5,628 nt of DNA from Collinsella aerofaciens. GTDB lineage: Bacteria; Actinomycetota; Coriobacteriia; Coriobacteriales; Coriobacteriaceae. Shown piece by piece: positions 1 to 5,628 of the stretch. The notes under the pieces are model-generated. The model searched no databases. It was not told the origin of the DNA and worked only from the letters and a program-made list of their open reading frames with translations. The translations under genes and the position numbers were made by a program. Where the stretch lies: the NCBI RefSeq assembly GCF_028209625.1, contig NZ_JAQLDU010000031.1:1-5628 (forward strand). The letters are read 5' to 3'. Numbering within the stretch: the stretch's first letter is position 1; each line of letters opens with the position of its first letter.

Positions 1-77
1 GCACTTCACGGCGTATATCGCAAGCGCCATCAGGCAGAAGTACCTGTGCTTGTATGATGCGCCCTCGCGTATCTTCC
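1..77. repeat. Terminal direct repeat, left copy (circular-closure overlap)
   Basis: Bases 1-77 are identical to 5552-5628. The repeat sits inside the rep coding sequence and keeps its frame across the junction. This is best explained as the k-mer overlap of a circular assembly, not a biological terminal repeat. The unique circle is 5,551 bp. Confidence 0.95.
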
Positions 78-900
78 GAAGCCACCAGTTGTATAGGTCT
101 TCCTTGGCATCCCATGAGCCGTCGGCATGACCGCCGTTGACGATGACCTTCTCGTACCACTCGGGGAACTTCTCCTTGGCCTGTTCGAGCGTGTACCTCG
201 TCTCCCTCCACTTCTTGGATAGGTCGACTTGCTGGTCTGGAGGAAGGAACCCGTTTAGCTCTTCGAGCGAGAACGGATGCGTGTTGACCCTGAATGCCCT
301 CACCGTACCGCCGTCCTTGGTCTTGCCGCCGATGATGCGGAACCCTTGGTTGATGCCCTGGTGCTGCGGGTGCTCCCATTCCCTCGATGTGTACTTGTTC
401 CACATCTGGTCGGTCAGGCGGTACTTCATGTCCTTCAGCAGGCTTTTGGTGTTCGGGTAAAGGTCGGCGGGTTCCTCGAGGACGTAGTACAGGTGGATAT
501 TGTGCCCGCTCAGGATGATGTAGTTCGGATCGGGATAGTAGGGGTAATCGCTGCGGCAGTTGTAAAAGAAGTTCCGCAGAGTAACGTCATCCTGACCGTC
601 GAGGTCGAAAATCAGGGCGCACATCTTGCTCTGCGCATCGGCGGTGTTCGCCCTGCCCCAGTAGGTGAGACCGTTCGTTATCGCCCAGTTCGCATCGCTG
701 AACTCGGCAAGAGTGTCCTCGAACGTGTCCTCGAACAGGATGCGACGGCGAACCCTGTCCCCTTCGAGCTTCCCGTCCTCGTCGTAATGACCGCCGAACG
801 AGCCGACGATGATGGGGTTCGCCTTGTGCTCACCGCTTGGCTCCCCTTCGGTCTGTATGAACCCGTACCCGAGCTGAAAGATATCGGAGTAGACATCCAT
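1..900 (-). CDS. Plasmid replication protein, AEP-type primase domain (N-terminal 300 residues; continues across the circle junction at 5551)
   Basis: This is the first 300 codons of a 468-residue replication protein that leaves the left edge and resumes at 5551 after circular closure. Translation gives an archaeo-eukaryotic-primase-like core. Residues 96-102 read LIFDLDG, which fits the metal-binding DxD motif I (D99, D101). Residues 131-139 read SGHNIHLYY, which fits motif II with its histidine (H136). Residues 185-195 read QGFRIIGGKTK, the conserved R-x-x-G-x-x-K segment of plasmid primases. The likely role is cytoplasmic priming and initiation of plasmid replication. ATG 900 is preceded by GAGG (912-909) at 8 nt. 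The frame is open up to a stop at 991-993, so GTG 960 remains an alternative start. It heads a minus-strand operon and diverges from the toxin-antitoxin pair. There is no helicase domain, so host helicase is presumably used. The motifs are read directly from the sequence; family and role are from knowledge of similar gut plasmid Rep proteins. Confidence 0.85.
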   Translation of the reverse strand, partial: MDVYSDIFQLGYGFIQTEGEPSGEHKANPIIVGSFGGHYDEDGKLEGDRVRRRILFEDTFEDTLAEFSDANWAITNGLTYWGRANTADAQSKMCALIFDLDGQDDVTLRNFFYNCRSDYPYYPDPNYIILSGHNIHLYYVLEEPADLYPNTKSLLKDMKYRLTDQMWNKYTSREWEHPQHQGINQGFRIIGGKTKDGGTVRAFRVNTHPFSLEELNGFLPPDQQVDLSKKWRETRYTLEQAKEKFPEWYEKVIVNGGHADGSWDAKEDLYNWWLRKIREGASYKHRYFCLMALAIYAVKC

Positions 901-989
901 GGCCGAGACCTCGAAAGCCCCGTACTCAAGAAGAACGGACTCAAGAGACAACCCACTCACCAACCTATCCCGGAAGCCCTCACAGGCAC

Positions 990-1018
990 GTTATATTATC
1001 AATAGATTTATTTTACAC
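990..1018 (-). promoter_or_regulatory. AT-rich segment upstream of rep: putative rep promoter and/or DNA-unwinding element
   Basis: Bases 991-1016 have only three G/C in 26, in an otherwise GC-rich plasmid. On the minus strand a -10-like TATAAC (995-990) lies 16 bp after a weak -35-like TGTAAA (1017-1012). It is placed correctly for rep transcription, with the start codon at 900. An AT-rich stretch next to rep could also be where the origin melts. The promoter match is modest, so both roles are inference. Confidence 0.35.
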
Positions 1019-1043
1019 CTAGAGCCAGAGAAAAAGGCCCCCT

Positions 1044-1061
1044 GAAATACGGGCGTATTTC
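1044..1061. promoter_or_regulatory. Inverted repeat GAAATACG-GG-CGTATTTC between rep and the toxin-antitoxin genes
   Basis: A perfect 8-bp inverted repeat with a 2-bp centre lies in the divergent promoter region. It overlaps the position expected for the -35 of the plus-strand promoter whose -10 is at 1081-1086. It may be an operator or a small hairpin. No T-run follows the stem closely enough on either strand to call a terminator. Confidence 0.4.
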
Positions 1062-1073
1062 TCCCGATAGAAA

Positions 1074-1099
1074 GATATGATATGATTTCATATCATATC
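1074..1099 (+). promoter_or_regulatory. Perfect 26-bp palindrome with embedded extended -10: operator-promoter of the toxin-antitoxin pair
   Basis: GATATGATATGA (1074-1085), a TT spacer (1086-1087) and TCATATCATATC (1088-1099) form a perfect inverted repeat. Inside it, TGATATGAT (1078-1086) matches an extended -10 (TGn plus TATGAT). The palindrome ends 1 bp before the toxin ribosome binding site, so transcription would start within or just after it. RHH antitoxins usually repress their own operon by binding such repeats; each half contains repeated ATATGA/TCATAT units that could seat successive RHH dimers. The regulator assignment is inference; the palindrome is seen directly. Confidence 0.7.
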
Positions 1100-1114
1100 G
1101 AGAGGAGAGCGGGC

Positions 1115-1375
1115 ATGAGCCAGATAGGGGTTCACCCCAGAATCAGCGAGCGGCACCCCGAGGTGAGCGATGCGGACGTGATGGCGGCGATGCGGTCGAT
1201 GATTCGCTACAAGCAGCGCGAATCGGGCGAGTGGATTGCCGTCGGCACGGACTCCCGCAGCAGGCTGGTCGAGCTCGTCTACATCTACGATGCCGACGAT
1301 GACTACTTCTTCGTCTACCACGGGATGACACCGCCGAGCGGCAAGACGCTCAGGGAACTAGGCTTGGAGAGGTGA
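1115..1375 (+). CDS. Small toxin-like protein, first gene of a BrnT-BrnA-like toxin-antitoxin pair
   Basis: This 86-residue protein starts at ATG 1115 with AGAGGAGA (1101-1108) 6 nt upstream. An ATG at 1082 would give 97 residues, but it lies inside the operator palindrome and lacks a ribosome binding site. The sequence has ISERHPEVSDADV near the N-terminus (R13-H14-P15-E16), then strands EWIAVGTDSRSRLVELVYIY and FFVYHGMTPP (H69), ending in KTLRELGL. This small alpha/beta pattern recalls compact RelE/BrnT-fold ribonuclease toxins, with the toxin gene first and an RHH antitoxin second as in BrnT-BrnA. No catalytic residues can be assigned with certainty. The next gene begins 5 nt after its stop. 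The likely role is plasmid stabilisation, by inference from gene pairing and size. Confidence 0.65.
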   Translation: MSQIGVHPRISERHPEVSDADVMAAMRSMIRYKQRESGEWIAVGTDSRSRLVELVYIYDADDDYFFVYHGMTPPSGKTLRELGLER

Positions 1376-1380
1376 TTTTG

Positions 1381-1653
1381 ATGAACGTGAACGATTTCAT
1401 GGCGAAGCACGGCATCACCGATGCCGACCTCGACCGTATGGCCGCGCCCTACGAAGACGGCAGCTTCGAGCCGGAACCCGATGGCAAGGTGTTCAGCGGC
1501 TCGCACCTCGACGCGGTCGGAACCCGCCGCGTGACGGTAGTCTACGACGCGAAGGACACGCAGAGGGTGGCCATGATAGCCCGCAGCAAGGGCGTGAAGC
1601 CGTCTTCGGTCTACAGGGACGCACTCGACTACTATCTTGCCGCACAGGCTTAA
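1381..1653 (+). CDS. RHH antitoxin-like protein, second gene of the pair
   Basis: This 90-residue protein has an acidic N-terminal half (ITDADLDRMAAPYEDGSFEPEPDG) and a C-terminal ribbon-helix-helix at about residues 49-87: strand RRVTVVYD, helix TQRVAMIARSKG, helix SSVYRDALDYYLAA. This is the usual antitoxin plan: one part wraps the toxin, the RHH part binds the operator. ATG 1381 is chosen because AGAGG in the toxin's last codons (1368-1372) lies 8 nt upstream. A GTG at 1372 overlaps the toxin stop but leaves almost no spacing to the ribosome binding site. The gene pair is tightly coupled, so translation of the two is probably linked. It probably represses the operon by binding the palindrome at 1074-1099. 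RHH identity is confident; the antitoxin role is inferred from context. Confidence 0.7.
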   Translation: MNVNDFMAKHGITDADLDRMAAPYEDGSFEPEPDGKVFSGSHLDAVGTRRVTVVYDAKDTQRVAMIARSKGVKPSSVYRDALDYYLAAQA

Positions 1654-1788
1654 ACGGTTGCCGCAGGCGGGTCAATGTAGCAGGCGGTGACTACGGGGCG
1701 GCGTGTTCCGCGCTTGCGCGGATCTAAGCCGACTCGTTCACCGGCTGCGGAATTGACGCGACGGTCAATCGAATAGACCAGACTTGAA
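1654..1788. other. Non-coding segment with small hairpins between antitoxin gene and terminator
   Basis: No convincing gene is seen. The segment holds TCCGCG-CTTG-CGCGGA (1707-1722), a six-pair stem with a CTTG loop, and ATTGAC-6 nt-GTCAAT (1752-1769). Neither is followed by a T-run. Possible roles are the 3' end of the toxin-antitoxin message or a single-strand initiation signal, but nothing decides between them. Confidence 0.3.
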
Positions 1789-1824
1789 AAAGGGTCGATG
1801 GACGCTCTGCTCCATCGACCCTTT
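1787..1824 (-). terminator. Intrinsic terminator of the relaxase gene (possibly bidirectional)
   Basis: A perfect 14-bp stem (1789-1802 with 1811-1824) has an 8-nt loop. On the minus strand it begins just after the relaxase stop codon and the stem runs into TTTTT (1791-1787), a good rho-independent terminator. On the plus strand the stem ends CCCTTTCC, so it may also stop toxin-antitoxin transcription, less efficiently. Confidence 0.85.
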
Positions 1825-1829
1825 CCTTG

Positions 1830-3461
1830 CTACCTGCCCTGCCCGATGTTGGGGTTCCGCTCGTGGCTCGGCTGCTCCTTGCGCCTTTGCGTCTGCTGTT
1901 GCGAAGCGGAACCGCCGCCCGGTCTCGGCTTTGGCTTGGGAGCGTCCTTCGCATGGCTCAGCCGCCACGCGTCGCACCTCTGCCAAGCGGACAAGATTGC
2001 CTGCTTTACGTCAGCATCGTCGGCGATTTCCGGTGTCGGGCGCGGCAACTTGAGCTTCGGCATGTCGGCGAGCATGTACCCGCCGCCGCGCGATTCCGCG
2101 CTCACGCCGCCCCTGTATTCCTTCTCGCGGCGCTTCACGTCGGCGATGTAGGCATCCCTCATGCAAGAGATACGTTCTGATTCAACCTCGGCGGAATTGT
2201 CGGAAAGATATTCGCCGAGCTTGGGGTCGAGGTCTGCCATGAGGGACGCGGCGCGCGGTTCGTCCTCGTCGTAGACCCAGAAGTCGCGACCCTTCCAAGC
2301 CGTTGCCGCGCCCCAGCCCTTGAGCCTTTCCCTGAAGTCGCGGAACCCCTTGGCGGCATCGAGCGCATAGAGGCAAAGCCCGCGCAGGTTGCGCAGCAGC
2401 GCGTCCATGACGGTCGGTCTGCACCACATGTCGAGTTCCCTCGACGCTTCGGCCATCTCGGCGTTCGCCATACGGCGCTCGGCATTCTGGGCACCGCGCA
2501 GGGTCACGGGTTCGTATTCGACCCCAGCCGCTTCGGCTTCGGCCTTGGCGCGGTTCTCCATGGCACGGACGCGGCTTCCCTCGTGCACCTGCGGGACGCG
2601 CTCGACGCCTTGGCGCTCGTAGCTCCTATGGTCTACGCGCCCATCGAACCCGTTCTCTTCGAGTGCGTCGTTTATGAGCGCCGCGATTTCGGAGCGCCAT
2701 TCCTCGGCCTTGGTCGGCTCGTTCCAGTCGGTAAGGTATCGCGTCTCCTGCTTCGGGTTGCGCCCCTGCCTGCTCTTTCTTGTCAGCTCGGATACGTCTT
2801 CCGGGTCTGCCGATTGCCCGAGTTTGCCACGCACCCGCGCGGCGGCTTCCGTCGGCGTGAGCCATCGCGTTTCGCCGCTGATTCGGTACCTGTAGACCTT
2901 TTCCCATCCCTCGGCTTTCAGGAAGGCGAACTCCTTGGCGCTCGCCTTCCTGTCATCTTTCTCGCCGAGCTTCCTGCACACGTAGACATTCTCCGATTTT
3001 GCGAGGAACCCGTTTTCGCCGACGGGGCGCAGCGGTTCAAGCTCGTGCACGTGCCAGTTCGTTCCGTCGACGTTGCAATGGATGCACGCATCGACCACGT
3101 GGCCGGCGGCTGCGCGCTGCGCCACGTGTTTCCTCGCGAGCCTGATTTTCTCGTCGTCCGGCAGCTCGTCGGGCAGCGCCCACTCGATTCGGCGGCAGAG
3201 CTGCGCGTCGGCCTTCTTCTCGACGCGCTCGACCTCGTTCCACAGCGCACCGCGCTCGCCGAACCGCTTCGGCGCGTTGTCTGGCAGCGCGATTCCCAAA
3301 TCCGCCACCAGACGCTCGTGCCTATGGGCTTTGGTGAAATCAAACATGGTTCCCTCGCGCTCGAACTCGATGGCCGAGCGCGATATGTATGCGGCACCAG
3401 CGACGGCGGACGCGCCGTCGGCGCGGGACGCGACGGATATGTTGCAGTGAAAGATGGCCAC
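1830..3461 (-). CDS. mobA: MobA/MobL-family relaxase (MOBQ-like)
   Basis: This 543-residue cytoplasmic transesterase nicks oriT and carries the strand covalently for conjugative mobilization. The N-terminus, MAIFHCNISVASR...AVAGAAY25, has the catalytic tyrosine at position 25, as in RSF1010 MobA. Residues 36-52 (EGTMFDFTKAHRHERLV) and ALWNEVERVEKKADAQLCRRIEWALP (about 72-97) are typical of the family. The histidine motif is H128 followed by H137-V-H139. DHRSYERQGVERVP lies further on. The C-terminal tail is rich in K/P, then Q (SASQQQTQRR), as in other MobA proteins. The start is GTG 3461, with GGGAGG (3474-3469) 7 nt upstream. The frame stays open to ATG 3638, but that start lies inside oriT and would add 59 unrelated residues. 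It diverges from the accessory gene at 3794 and ends in a terminator at 1824-1787. No coupling protein or type IV secretion genes are present, so transfer needs a helper. Confidence 0.93.
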   Translation of the reverse strand: MAIFHCNISVASRADGASAVAGAAYISRSAIEFEREGTMFDFTKAHRHERLVADLGIALPDNAPKRFGERGALWNEVERVEKKADAQLCRRIEWALPDELPDDEKIRLARKHVAQRAAAGHVVDACIHCNVDGTNWHVHELEPLRPVGENGFLAKSENVYVCRKLGEKDDRKASAKEFAFLKAEGWEKVYRYRISGETRWLTPTEAAARVRGKLGQSADPEDVSELTRKSRQGRNPKQETRYLTDWNEPTKAEEWRSEIAALINDALEENGFDGRVDHRSYERQGVERVPQVHEGSRVRAMENRAKAEAEAAGVEYEPVTLRGAQNAERRMANAEMAEASRELDMWCRPTVMDALLRNLRGLCLYALDAAKGFRDFRERLKGWGAATAWKGRDFWVYDEDEPRAASLMADLDPKLGEYLSDNSAEVESERISCMRDAYIADVKRREKEYRGGVSAESRGGGYMLADMPKLKLPRPTPEIADDADVKQAILSAWQRCDAWRLSHAKDAPKPKPRPGGGSASQQQTQRRKEQPSHERNPNIGQGR

Positions 3462-3526
3462 CGCCAGACCTCCCGTGGACGAACCTTGGCAAGATGCCGG
3501 AGCGCCGCCGCGACGGCATCGCGCAG

Positions 3527-3554
3527 CCCGCGATGATTCCGGAATCGCTGCGGG
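3527..3554. promoter_or_regulatory. Imperfect palindrome in the relaxase leader
   Basis: CCCGC at 3527-3531 and GCGGG at 3550-3554 flank a perfect GATTCCGGAATC core (3535-3546), giving an imperfect 28-bp palindrome about 65 bp upstream of the relaxase GTG. It could be an operator for a relaxase or accessory-protein repressor, or a leader hairpin. No function is shown by sequence alone. Confidence 0.4.
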
Positions 3555-3586
3555 AGAATGGCAAGACTGCGGAGCGGTCGCGCAGT

Positions 3587-3607
3587 CGGACGGTCTGACC
3601 GTTCCGA
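3587..3607. repeat. Inverted repeat with one bulge near oriT
   Basis: TCGGACGGT (3587-3595 region) faces ACCGTTCCGA around a CTG centre; the pairing is complete apart from one bulged T. It lies about 50 bp from the predicted nick, so it may be part of the relaxosome-binding region. This is inferred from position only. Confidence 0.35.
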
Positions 3608-3633
3608 CGGAGAAGCCCCGCGCAGCGGCGCAC

Positions 3634-3668
3634 GTCATGCCGCAGGCGTGACATATAAGTGCGCTTTA
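3634..3668 (+). other. oriT: oriT: inverted repeat plus TAAGTGCGC nick-site core
   Basis: GTCATGCC (3634-3641), loop GCA, GGCGTGAC (3645-3652) form an 8-pair stem with one G-T wobble. Three bases later comes TAAGTGCGC (3656-3664), the core shared by RSF1010/R1162-type (MOBQ) nick sites. By analogy with R1162, the plus strand would be cut at about 3663/3664. The repeat 5' of the nick matches the known arrangement. The strand polarity means the accessory gene side enters the recipient first and the relaxase gene last, as is usual. The site lies between the divergent relaxase and accessory genes. The match is seen directly; the cleavage position is inferred. Confidence 0.85.
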
Positions 3669-3686
3669 TCCCTACGGGCTAAAGAT

Positions 3687-3692
3687 ATTATA
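3687..3692 (-). promoter_or_regulatory. Putative -10 (TATAAT) for the relaxase gene, minus strand
   Basis: The minus strand reads a consensus TATAAT at 3692-3687. A -35 is weak (TTTCGC about 16 bp upstream). Transcription from here would cross oriT and give the relaxase a leader of about 220 nt. On the plus strand the same bases give TATTAT (3686-3691), a possible -10 for the accessory gene, so the site may serve both directions. Confidence 0.4.
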
Positions 3693-3718
3693 GCCATTCC
3701 GCGCCGCCGCGAAATGGC
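3693..3718. promoter_or_regulatory. Inverted repeat beside the mob promoter, possible operator
   Basis: GCCATTCCGCG (3693-3703) pairs with CGCGAAATGGC (3708-3718) around a CCGC loop, with one mismatch in 11. It abuts the TATAAT at 3692-3687, where a relaxosome protein could repress both divergent mob genes. A second smaller inverted repeat, GCGTCGG-8 nt-CCGACGC (3737-3758), follows. The structure is seen directly; the regulatory role is inference. Confidence 0.4.
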
Positions 3719-3793
3719 CTACCATATGCACGGGTAGCGTCGGTGCCGCCGCCGACGCGGACAATTTCGACGGATTGGGCAAGGTGGTTCCGC

Positions 3794-4096
3794 ATGGCGA
3801 CGCTTGAGGAATTGGAAAAACGCAAAAGGCAGCTCGAAGCGCAGATTCAGCGCAAGAAGCGCGAGCTTGCGAAGTCCGAGCGCAAGGCGAGGAACCACGC
3901 CGTCATGGTCGCTGGCGGCCTGCTGATGGCGAAGGCCCCGGGCGGTGACTGGAAGTCGGTCGATTGGAACGCGCTCGCCGCGTTCATCGCCGGGCACGCC
4001 GACGAGATTTCGGCGTGCGGTACGCAGCCGCTCGACACGGATGGGGCGAGCAAGCGCCTTCGCGAGTGGGAGAAGGCAAAGCGCCAGCAGGTGTAG
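3794..4096 (+). CDS. Small relaxase-accessory-like protein (MobC/TraD-type)
   Basis: This 100-residue basic protein has an N-terminal charged coiled coil (about residues 4-33, LEELEKRKRQLEAQIQRKKRELAKSERKAR). It is followed by HAVMVAGGLLMAKA, the glycine-containing helix seen in small Mob accessory proteins of the TraD/DUF3847 kind, then DWKSVDWNALAAFIAGHADEI. Such proteins are encoded next to MobA/MobL relaxases and help them bind or open oriT. ATG 3794 is preceded by AAGGTGG (3781-3787) at 6 nt. An upstream start at 3743 lies in a hairpin and adds 17 unlike residues. It diverges from the relaxase across oriT and would enter a recipient early. The family call rests on motif style and context, so the exact family is uncertain. 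Confidence 0.75.
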   Translation: MATLEELEKRKRQLEAQIQRKKRELAKSERKARNHAVMVAGGLLMAKAPGGDWKSVDWNALAAFIAGHADEISACGTQPLDTDGASKRLREWEKAKRQQV

Positions 4097-4132
4097 CGGC
4101 ACTCGCCAGATGCCCAGAATCGGCTTTAAAAG

Positions 4133-4165
4133 AACATGGCCGCAGAACTCTTCTGCGGCCATGTT
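4133..4165. terminator. Bidirectional intrinsic terminator between convergent genes
   Basis: A perfect 15-bp stem (4133-4147 with 4151-4165) closes a 3-nt CTC loop. On the minus strand the stem is followed by CTTTT and ends the rep operon. On the plus strand it is followed by TC after the TTT at its end, weaker, and ends the accessory gene transcript. A smaller GAGCC-7 nt-GGCTC repeat lies at 4169-4185. Confidence 0.85.
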
Positions 4166-4207
4166 TCGGAGCCTTAAAACGGCTCTCAGACGTTCATTTG
4201 TGCCAAA

Positions 4208-4540
4208 TCAGCTGAACGAGCAGTAGACGTACCCGCCCTTTCGGTCATACTCCCAATCTCCCGGAAGCTCGCTGCCGTCCGAATCGACCTCGACCCACCA
4301 GCCGTCCTCCGGGTCTCCCATGACGCGCCAGCGGCGCTTGCCGAGCTGCGACACGAGTTCATCGCCGTCAGGCTCGACGAGCGCGGAATCGCCCACATCG
4401 CCGACGCGCTCGACCGACAGAACCCACGCCTTGCCCTCGGCGCTCGCGATTCGGTTGAAGAACTCCGACAGCTCGAAGTCAGCCACCTCGGTGCGCTCGC
4501 ATTCCCCCGACCTGCGCAGCACGGATACGTTCCACTTCAC
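4208..4540 (-). CDS. Acidic protein of unknown function, third gene of the rep operon
   Basis: I do not recognise this 110-residue protein. It is acidic (about 24 D/E against 13 K/R) and rich in aromatic residues, with strands such as KWNVSVLRR, AWVLSVERV, RRWRVMG, GWWVEVD and GGYVYCSFS. This suggests a small beta-rich fold. It has no signal peptide or membrane segment. The start chosen is GTG 4540, two bases after the TAG of the preceding gene, with GGAGG in that gene's last codons 8 nt upstream; translational coupling is likely. An ATG at 4576 would overlap the upstream gene by 34 bp and is less likely. It ends before the shared terminator. The strong negative charge would allow a DNA-mimic or anti-restriction role, or binding to the basic partner upstream, but that is speculation. 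Confidence 0.7.
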   Translation of the reverse strand: MKWNVSVLRRSGECERTEVADFELSEFFNRIASAEGKAWVLSVERVGDVGDSALVEPDGDELVSQLGKRRWRVMGDPEDGWWVEVDSDGSELPGDWEYDRKGGYVYCSFS

Positions 4541-4542
4541 GG

Positions 4543-4965
4543 CTAGCCCCTCCAAGCCCTCTTGAGCCTTTGCCATCGGCTCAGCTTCTGCTCGGTCGAT
4601 TCCAGCGCGAGCGCCTGCGCCGTCTCGTGGTGGAGCGCCTGAGCGCCCTGCACGGCCTTGGTGCCGTCGGCCACCGTCTCCATGAGCTTGGCTATCTGCT
4701 CGTCCTTCTTGGCGAGCTGAGCATCCTTGACGGCCAACTGCTCGACGAGCGCGGCAAGCGCTGGCGAATCGGCTCCGCTCGACCGCTCGGCACCGTGTAT
4801 CTCCTGTGTATCTCGGTGTGTATCACCCTGTGTATCAGGCGGCTCCTCGTCAAGCGAGTCGATGAACCCGCGAATCAAATCAGTTTGGGAACATCCTCGC
4901 AGCTCGGAAACCTTTTTTAGCTTGCAGATTTGCTCATCTGTAAGCCTGAACATCTTCTGCGGCAC
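4543..4965 (-). CDS. Ribbon-helix-helix/coiled-coil protein, probable plasmid copy-control or segregation factor
   Basis: This 140-residue protein follows rep. Residues 4-40 fit an RHH DNA-binding domain: strand KMFRLTD, helix EQICKLKKVSELRG, helix SQTDLIRGFIDSL. Residues 44-57 (DTQGDTHRDTQEIH) are encoded by the second GATACAC array. Residues about 70-98 form a coiled coil (ALVEQLAVKDAQLAKKDEQIAKL), then an alanine/glutamine-rich helix and a basic tail (RWQRLKRAWRG). GTG 4965 is chosen because AGGAG (4976-4972) lies 6 nt upstream. GTG 5022 or ATG 5019 would add 19 residues that include another DTQGDTHRDTQEIH, but they lack a ribosome binding site. DNA-binding head plus coiled coil and no NTPase recalls single-protein partition factors such as pSK1 Par, and second genes of theta-plasmid rep operons. 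Function is inferred. Confidence 0.72.
   Translation of the reverse strand: MPQKMFRLTDEQICKLKKVSELRGCSQTDLIRGFIDSLDEEPPDTQGDTHRDTQEIHGAERSSGADSPALAALVEQLAVKDAQLAKKDEQIAKLMETVADGTKAVQGAQALHHETAQALALESTEQKLSRWQRLKRAWRG
4794..4838 (-). repeat. GATACAC array, copy 1 (inside the RHH/coiled-coil gene)
   Basis: This 45-bp block is identical to 4965-5009. Read on the minus strand it holds four GATACAC boxes (plus-strand GTGTATC at 4795, 4806, 4818 and 4830), with start-to-start spacing of 11, 12 and 12 bp, about one helical turn. It encodes DTQGDTHRDTQEIH. Such helically phased short repeats are typical of iterons, centromeres or RHH-protein operators. Confidence 0.85.
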
Positions 4966-5009
4966 GTGTATCTCCTGTGTATCTCGGTGTGTATCACCCT
5001 GTGTATCAG
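4965..5009 (-). repeat. GATACAC array, copy 2 (between rep and the RHH/coiled-coil gene)
   Basis: This is the exact copy of 4794-4838, offset by 171 bp (57 codons). Boxes are at plus-strand 4966, 4977, 4989 and 5001. The fourth box overlaps the AGGAG ribosome binding site of the next gene and ends right at its GTG, so a bound protein or structure here could govern that gene. It is the likeliest iteron or centromere of the plasmid. Confidence 0.85.
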
Positions 5010-5044
5010 CCCATTTCATCACCCAAATGAAAAGCGGGCAAGAA

Positions 5045-5628
5045 TCAATCGGCTTTCGGCTCCGTCATATCGACGTGAACGTGCCCGTTTTCGTACCATG
5101 CGCCATCCGGCAGGCCGTCGGTGTCGCACTTCCAACCCCTCAGCCATTTGATGACGGTAGGACGCGACACGCCAAGCGCCTTTGCTATGTCCGAGTGGTT
5201 GGCATCCGGGTGCTCGCGGGCATAGGAGCGAATCAGCTCGCGCTTCTCACCGCTTCCCTTCGGCCGACCTTGCAACGCATGACCGGCATCCTCGCTCAGA
5301 ATCTCAAGGTTCGAACGCGCCATTCTGAGGTGCAGCGCCTGCTTCCTGTAGTTCCGCTTGTTCTTCGGGATGGCCATACCCGATATCTTCTCCAAGTCCT
5401 TGATGGGGAACTTCTTGTACCGCAGGTCGAGGCATTCGAGTGCGTTCTCGACCTCGTGGTCGTTGCCGAACGGGTGCTCGGTGTCTACCGAATCCAGGAA
5501 CGGCACCAGCGAATCCATGTCCGCCTTGACGCGTTCGCGGTCGGTGATGCCGCACTTCACGGCGTATATCGCAAGCGCCATCAGGCAGAAGTACCTGTGC
5601 TTGTATGATGCGCCCTCGCGTATCTTCC
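5045..5628 (-). CDS. Plasmid replication protein, C-terminal part with helix-turn-helix (same gene as 1-900)
   Basis: This is the 3' part of the Rep gene whose 5' part lies at 900-1; bases 5552-5628 duplicate 1-77. Joined, the protein is 468 residues and ends at the TGA at 5047-5045. Residues about 285-375 form a helical segment (MALAIYAVKC through FPIKDLEKISG and NKRNYRKQ) typical of the region after the primase core in this Rep family. Residues about 395-440 carry GRPKGSGEKRELI, then a helix-turn-helix (HSDIAKALGVSRPTVIKWLRG), probably for origin recognition. Called on the linear sequence alone, this part would look like a 178-residue protein starting at 5581. That M is internal and matches the duplicated start of the window. 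The RHH/coiled-coil gene follows 79 nt downstream on the same strand, with a GATACAC array in the gap. The function as initiator-primase is inferred; the HTH and the frame continuity are seen directly. Confidence 0.85.
   Translation of the reverse strand, partial: KIREGASYKHRYFCLMALAIYAVKCGITDRERVKADMDSLVPFLDSVDTEHPFGNDHEVENALECLDLRYKKFPIKDLEKISGMAIPKNKRNYRKQALHLRMARSNLEILSEDAGHALQGRPKGSGEKRELIRSYAREHPDANHSDIAKALGVSRPTVIKWLRGWKCDTDGLPDGAWYENGHVHVDMTEPKAD
5552..5628. repeat. Terminal direct repeat, right copy
   Basis: This is an exact copy of bases 1-77. Merging the two copies restores one continuous 468-codon rep frame on the minus strand, which independently supports circularity. Confidence 0.95.

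Follow-up and report, generated by a model that had tools for sequence, protein, structure and literature searches.

The stretch of DNA analysed here (the window; 5,628 nucleotides, Collinsella aerofaciens NZ_JAQLDU010000031.1, positions 1-5,628, to which the coordinates of plasmid features below refer) represents a circular plasmid of 5,551 bp, as its first 77 bases recur as its last 77. Downstream of the replication gene rep, the minus strand carries a gene for a protein of 140 residues (4543..4965, GTG start) together with two arrays of four GATACAC boxes. The upstream array U (4965..5009) precedes the gene, and the intragenic array I (4794..4838) lies within it, in the linker between the segment coding for a predicted ribbon-helix-helix (RHH) DNA-binding domain (4839..4965) and that coding for a conserved coiled coil and tail (4546..4758). 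We propose, with a probability of roughly 0.65, that the arrays are binding sites of the protein whose gene follows the one and contains the other, and that they form a putative centromere, split into an upstream and an intragenic half, of a partition system that consists of one protein. In a related plasmid, judging from sequence alignments, the whole array-RHH-array segment is replaced as a unit, a result that goes beyond the preliminary description of this DNA.

Two arrays around the segment for a predicted DNA-binding domain

U and I were identical across 45 bp, and the identity stopped exactly at both edges. They were 171 bp apart from start to start, with a gap of 126 bp. On the minus strand the boxes of U occupied 5001-5007, 4989-4995, 4977-4983 and 4966-4972, and those of I occupied 4830-4836, 4818-4824, 4806-4812 and 4795-4801, so that the steps along the gene were 12, 12 and 11 bp in both arrays. 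These eight were the only exact GATACAC sequences in the window; eight scattered matches with one mismatch were present besides. Within the 327-nt region a single 7-mer recurs eight times, a count that no dinucleotide shuffle matched (0/2000 as high; maximum 4), and 219 stretches of equal length elsewhere in the plasmid held at most five copies of one 7-mer. As a consequence of the 12, 12, 11 spacing the fourth box of I falls into a different reading frame: boxes 1 to 3 encode Asp-Thr in frame 0 and box 4 encodes Glu-Ile-His in frame 2. The preliminary description had reported two perfect 45-bp blocks 171 bp apart, each with four boxes at 11-12 bp steps, and the reading as three Asp-Thr and one Glu-Ile-His; all of this was confirmed. 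It had also concluded that the word is kept as DNA and not as peptide. The boxes did occupy two reading frames in the window and three in a related locus (L123, see below). The same peptide written with scrambled codons was not seen in the window or in two close relatives (L121, L122), among which divergence is too small to give such a comparison power.

The rep stop and U are separated by 35 bp (5010..5044). U overlaps a Shine-Dalgarno-like site read from the sequence, AGGAG at 4972..4976 on the minus strand, which lies between its third and fourth boxes and shares its last base with the beginning of box 4; U ends on the initial G of the GTG start codon. An alternative in-frame start further upstream (GTG at 5022, or the next ATG) would put U into coding sequence, and such a start is annotated in 21 of the 79 homologues with the same kind of RHH domain (type 1) that are described below. 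Because AGGAG precedes the GTG at 4965, translation more likely starts there and yields the 140-residue form. A search of 4100-5300 gave neither a sigma-70 promoter nor a terminator.

Probable natural exchange between related plasmids

A second Collinsella contig (L123) provided the clearest case. It matched the window at 90-94% of bases as far as the last rep codons, BLASTN found no similarity between the two from near 5054 to near 4719, and from just within the coil they matched again at 95.7%. The proteins behaved in the same way: Rep of L123 was 91.7% identical to Rep of the window (90% in the C-terminal part) and the coil was 80.5% identical across 77 BLASTP columns, whereas its RHH domain gave no BLASTP match to that of the window. 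The boxes of L123 have the word GCCA(T/G)AC, unlike the GATACAC of the window, and the replaced stretch also holds an extra small open reading frame (ORF; 1398-1733). In other words, Rep and coil stayed while RHH and boxes changed, which by this alignment is a natural cassette swap. A complete Eggerthella lenta plasmid (L127) is the converse of this case as far as sequence comparison goes: it gave no match to the window Rep and has the same box word as L123, to which it is 48% identical in the coil and 38% in the domain. Two further loci, L135 and L177, encode proteins related to Rep (28% and 36%) and have further box words. In these comparisons box sharing follows the DNA-binding domain, and neither the coil nor Rep. 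The preliminary description had linked the arrays to the RHH protein; the swap in L123 together with the Mantel tests given below supports this link, as against one to Rep.

The type-1 DNA, known from three sequences (window, L121 from an Ellagibacter contig and L122 from a Slackia contig), also varied unevenly along its length. Between the window and L122 the segment U-RHH-I differed at 4/216 positions, compared with 18/206 at the rep end (Fisher 0.002) and 12/230 in the coil (Fisher 0.07, a 21-nt gap being set aside). Between the window and L121 the corresponding values were 1/216, 7/206 (0.03) and 8/251 (0.04). The G+C content of the U-RHH-I segment was 0.50, that of the coil 0.67. We consider it quite probable that domain and arrays are exchanged as a cassette.

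Box words in related loci

DNA was available for 17 loci of the family: the window, L121, L122, L123, L127, L128 (an uncultured plasmid), L134, L135, L137 (on a 1.6-Mb contig), L142, L143, L147, L154 (a C. difficile plasmid), L155 (M. gnavus plasmid), L156 (Leuconostoc plasmid), L174 (E. hirae plasmid) and L177 (Pusillibacter plasmid). A 7-mer was repeated above shuffles around the domain-coding segment in 14 of them, compared with none of a contrast set of four chromosomal genes for helix-turn-helix (HTH) and coil proteins. The words differed. GATACAC was found in the window, L121 and L122; GCCA(T/G)AC in L123 and L127; GAAATAC in L134; GCAATAC in L137; CGCACCG in L142; GAAATGC/CGAAA in L147; GCGAAAC, TGCGAAA and GCGAAAG in L135, L154 and L155; CGCAAAC in L177; and AGTGACA in L128. 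An ATAC core with varying flanks is common to the words of the RHH-type loci window, L123, L127, L134 and L137; L142, which looks RHH-like on inspection, lacks it. The RHH-like loci, L147 and L128 had boxes both ahead of the start codon used and within the gene. In L135, L154, L155 and L177 both main clusters were within the gene, around the HTH segment.

Sharing of words was quantified between segments delimited by the analyst, with a fixed 135-nt split in four HTH loci and an uncertain start codon in L147. Across 12 representative loci so treated, the two segments of the same locus shared a mean of 13.8 seven-mers, compared with 2.65 for crossed pairs, and none of 20000 permutations reached the same-locus sum. 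When the first segments of the six RHH-like loci were taken strictly upstream, 2 of 720 orders reached the sum, the true order included. With 7-mers and 8-mers only L127 and L154 were outranked, by L123 and L155, which have the same kind of domain; with 6-mers L127 ranked third after L123 and L142, and L134 third after L128 and L137. Between loci, word sharing rose with sequence identity over the N-terminal 40 residues (Mantel r 0.57, 0/5000) and not with identity of coil and tail (Mantel r 0.13, 600/5000). Since the word changes along with the DNA-binding domain in most of the relatives examined, the arrays are likely to be the protein's own binding sites, and we regard it as very probable, on these comparisons, that the 140-residue protein binds the GATACAC boxes.

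Several loci were left out of the family. L136 and L138 gave coil-like matches only, L144 and L145 were RHH genes of another kind, L146 and L153 had no ORF passing the motif, and the gene start of L129 was missing. L130 was a near copy of L127, and L139 was the second copy of L137 in the same genome (10/1000). L124-126, L131-133, L140, L141, L148, L157-159 and L169 were the same places under other identifiers. Selection by Rep yielded 17 places in 14 of 396 genomes, and in a crude motif scan four of these (L157, L158, L159 and L169) had a coil gene at most 900 nt downstream. Of four further plasmids selected by Rep (L174-L177), L177 passed the array test, L174 failed it, and in L175 no such coil gene was seen downstream.

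A scan of IMG/VR for the 42-bp array gave no match, and two scans of the same database with the protein or its alignment as query gave no relative. At least 120 stretches in IMG/VR carry three GATACAC at 11-12 bp steps (counted for GATACAC alone); they look like other systems and were kept out of the comparisons above. Some lie within phage genes and read D-T-P-N, continuing LTICNYDEYQ, and others form an 11-bp array in an apparent conserved phage regulatory site.

Homologues and predicted structure of the protein

A search with the window protein gave 873 homologues, 120 of them listed, whose kinds were assigned by N-terminal motif. Among those listed, 79 had the RHH kind of the window (type 1), 10 had KVKKTFRIEE, 17 had KVSRTYRIEQ and 14 were others, including P0080, which is type 1 with an altered motif. 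All these N-terminal kinds sit on similar coils and tails. For the metagenomic proteins of the KVSRTYRIEQ kind, such as P0099, the peptide EKYAEKYVGNT would predict a box close to AAATACG, both ahead of the gene and in the linker. In nine of the 14 others (P0074, P0075, P0077, P0081-P0084, P0086 and P0096) the array was joined directly to the coil, without RHH; P0074 represents 53 sequences on 9 contigs. Such forms could have arisen either by recombination between U and I or by assembly collapse of the repeat. The number of D-T repeats in the type-1 linker varied from 0 to 5. A second search with the E. lenta protein gave 154 homologues, of which 120 were listed: 90 with a KVKKTYR-type domain, 24 with a MKAxTFRL-type domain and six others. 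A closely similar coil was found with different RHH domains, dissimilar ones taking the place of the one encoded at 4839..4965, and more distant relatives whose coil and tail are similar carry HTH (L135, L147). Three HTH relatives used as queries against PDB sequences gave no match like pSK1 Par (for L128, among the best 60 of 94). L149-L152 are chromosomal HTH and coiled-coil genes of the MPTIKEIAD type from four genomes of the family of Collinsella genome G003. They have no arrays, and their proteins are possibly RocS-like.

From N to C terminus, the 140-residue product consists of the predicted RHH domain, the linker, the coiled coil and a basic tail containing Trp. An AlphaFold2 model based on a 34-row alignment (mean predicted local distance difference test score, pLDDT, 78.5; predicted template modelling score 0.31) showed helices at 10-23 and 27-39, whereas the linker at 44-63, the site of I, was below pLDDT 50. 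A long predicted helix at 68-120 (mean pLDDT 84-94 across 71-110 and 74 across 111-120) suggests a central coiled coil, and a terminal helix, basic and with Trp, was predicted at 124-139. Coil and tail were better conserved than the DNA-binding domain. The structural neighbours of residues 1-45 were mostly RHH proteins, with Z-scores that are weak when taken alone (PutA 4.5, Arc 4.2, MatP 4.2, CopG 4.0). When the family profile was compared with PDB, CopG appeared at E 0.15 and ranked below designed helical proteins. The protein of L127, which is of a related kind, passed the Pfam RHH_1 cut-off. An RHH fold is therefore likely, though not proven, for the type-1 N-terminal domain.

Comparison with known systems and alternative explanations

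In the single-protein partition systems pSK1 Par and RocS, the DNA-binding domain is followed by a coiled coil, then by DUF536 and last by a C-terminal stretch that is amphipathic or MinD-like (PMC11500499); a second study gives the same domain order for RocS (PMC13042908). Like Par of the staphylococcal plasmid pSK1, the system proposed here has one protein, with a predicted DNA-binding domain followed by a coil, and no nucleoside triphosphatase (NTPase) in the ORF pieces scanned. It differs in that pSK1 Par has a winged HTH where an RHH domain is predicted here. The pSK1 par gene has repeats in front of it, whereas here half of the repeats are intragenic, and repeat word and domain are exchanged together. 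RocS, which acts in chromosome partition of Streptococcus pneumoniae, also has its DNA-binding domain first and the coil after it. It is chromosomal and has a winged HTH, whereas the present gene is plasmid-borne and has arrays; to our knowledge RocS has no repeat array. ParR-parC of plasmid R1, ParG and omega resemble the system proposed here in that an RHH protein acts on helically spaced direct repeats, parC of R1 being two clusters of five 11-bp repeats. Those repeats, however, lie outside the gene, and the proteins need a ParM or ParA NTPase, whereas no member of the ParA, ParM or TubZ families was found in the eight ORF pieces of this plasmid scanned with Pfam and NCBIfam. Placing a centromere site inside a coding region has a precedent: on a repABC plasmid, parS is described as lying within that of repB (PMC4492784). 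That parS belongs to a three-gene system, whereas here a pair of arrays flanks the DNA-binding domain and travels with it. No description of such an arrangement was found in the literature searched, whose coverage leaves out most subscription journals. CopG repressors, finally, are also small plasmid RHH proteins. They are of about 45 residues, have no coil and act at the rep promoter. The preliminary description had suggested one-protein partition or copy control. The former stands in so far as the gene looks like a partition gene, with half of its putative centromere inside it; copy control in the sense of CopG is a poor fit for arrays that follow rep instead of standing at its promoter. We take the protein as an RHH variant of the pSK1 Par and RocS kind because of the same domain order, the absence of an NTPase family in the scan and the occurrence of HTH in distant relatives. 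By this analogy partition, the sharing of plasmid copies between daughter cells, is on balance the favoured function.

Three kinds of observation weigh against a one-protein partition system with a split centromere. The repeated 7-mer was not above shuffles in L143, L156 and L174 (3/17 loci). DUF536 matched the start of the coil at 16.7 bits (E 0.0065, 17/43 positions), below the cut-off of 20.7, was below cut-off or absent in relatives, and gave no match at all in 4/16 proteins. The hydrophobic moment of the tail was not above shuffles, so that the resemblance of the terminal helix to a membrane helix did not exceed that of shuffled sequences.

It might be thought that the arrays are simply an operator, at which the RHH protein represses its own gene by binding U, with I aiding by looping and partition playing no part. 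U does cover the Shine-Dalgarno-like site and the start codon, the distance between the two sites, about 16 helical turns, is suitable for looping, and RHH repressors (CopG, Arc and several antitoxins) were frequent among the structure matches. A simple repressor, however, needs neither a 50-residue coiled coil nor a conserved basic tail containing Trp; the better conservation of these parts and the agreement in domain order with RocS and pSK1 Par likewise speak for more than repression. We consider an operator alone unlikely, while giving it more weight than either of the following explanations. Direct repeats close to rep genes frequently prove to be iterons, and U begins 35 bp past the stop of a Rep that ends in an HTH_23 domain, so the arrays might be a replication origin downstream of rep with one copy in the next gene. 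This is disfavoured, and in our view highly improbable, as the repeat word does not follow Rep: L123 keeps Rep and changes the word together with RHH, L127 shares that word without a match to the window Rep, and the Rep relatives of L135 and L177 go with other words. Equally improbable is a reading that gives the DNA itself no function, in which the 45 bp were duplicated recently or selection acts on the D-T peptide of the linker. The exact identity of U and I is what a fresh duplication or gene conversion would leave, and the linker is conserved in most listed type-1 homologues (three D-T in 61/79, an E-I-H-like end in 77/79), but the same layout recurs with diverged arrays and other words in other domain kinds, the boxes occupy several reading frames, and U lies upstream of the likely start.

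Other features of the plasmid

The rep gene, on the minus strand, encodes 489 residues and crosses the circle junction: it starts at 963, its N-terminal part occupies 1..963, and its C-terminal part with HTH_23 occupies 5045..5551. A MobA/MobL relaxase match at 1830-3638 on the minus strand (Pfam 188.9 bits, above the cut-off; NCBIfam MobQ below its cut-off) indicates that the plasmid is probably mobilisable. On the plus strand, 1082-1653 holds two small overlapping ORFs of 97 and 93 amino acids that are ordered like a toxin-antitoxin pair and preceded by a palindrome-like stretch near 1077-1100; neither had a Pfam family above the cut-off. An element of 166 bp at 1665-1830 matched parts of three small Coriobacteriia plasmids at 83-90% identity, the C. 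aerofaciens plasmids NZ_CP084006.1 and NZ_CP048435.1, where it is annotated as part of a Rep gene, and the E. lenta plasmid NZ_CP089340.1, where it is unannotated. An Rfam search of this element gave no match; it could be an origin or a transfer site.

Proposed mechanism and implications

In the one-protein partition system that we favour, RHH dimers would lie side by side on the boxes of both arrays, about one per helical turn. Coil and tail would join the bound dimers and bridge both half-centromeres as well as sister plasmids. Tethering of the complex to the membrane or the nucleoid, which has been proposed for RocS and pSK1 Par, might then deliver copies to each daughter cell. Protein bound to U, which spans the ribosome-binding site and the start of the gene, would also lower expression of that gene. 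The half-centromere in the linker would keep domain and target together, and one recombination event would then give a new plasmid specificity, probably a new incompatibility group.

The arrangement may amount, at about even odds, to a plug-in centromere cassette in plasmids of gut Coriobacteriia and some Bacillota, in which domain and sites move as one segment, specificity changes in one step and similar plasmids can coexist in a cell. Single-protein partition is poorly understood, and the cassette would bear on how the specificity of protein and centromere may change without a broken intermediate. Possible intermediates may be present among the sequences: the same Rep and coil with differing domain-box segments, RHH and HTH versions, and forms without RHH. 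The family would thus provide a testable rule, that the box follows the domain, together with a set of predicted protein-site pairs.
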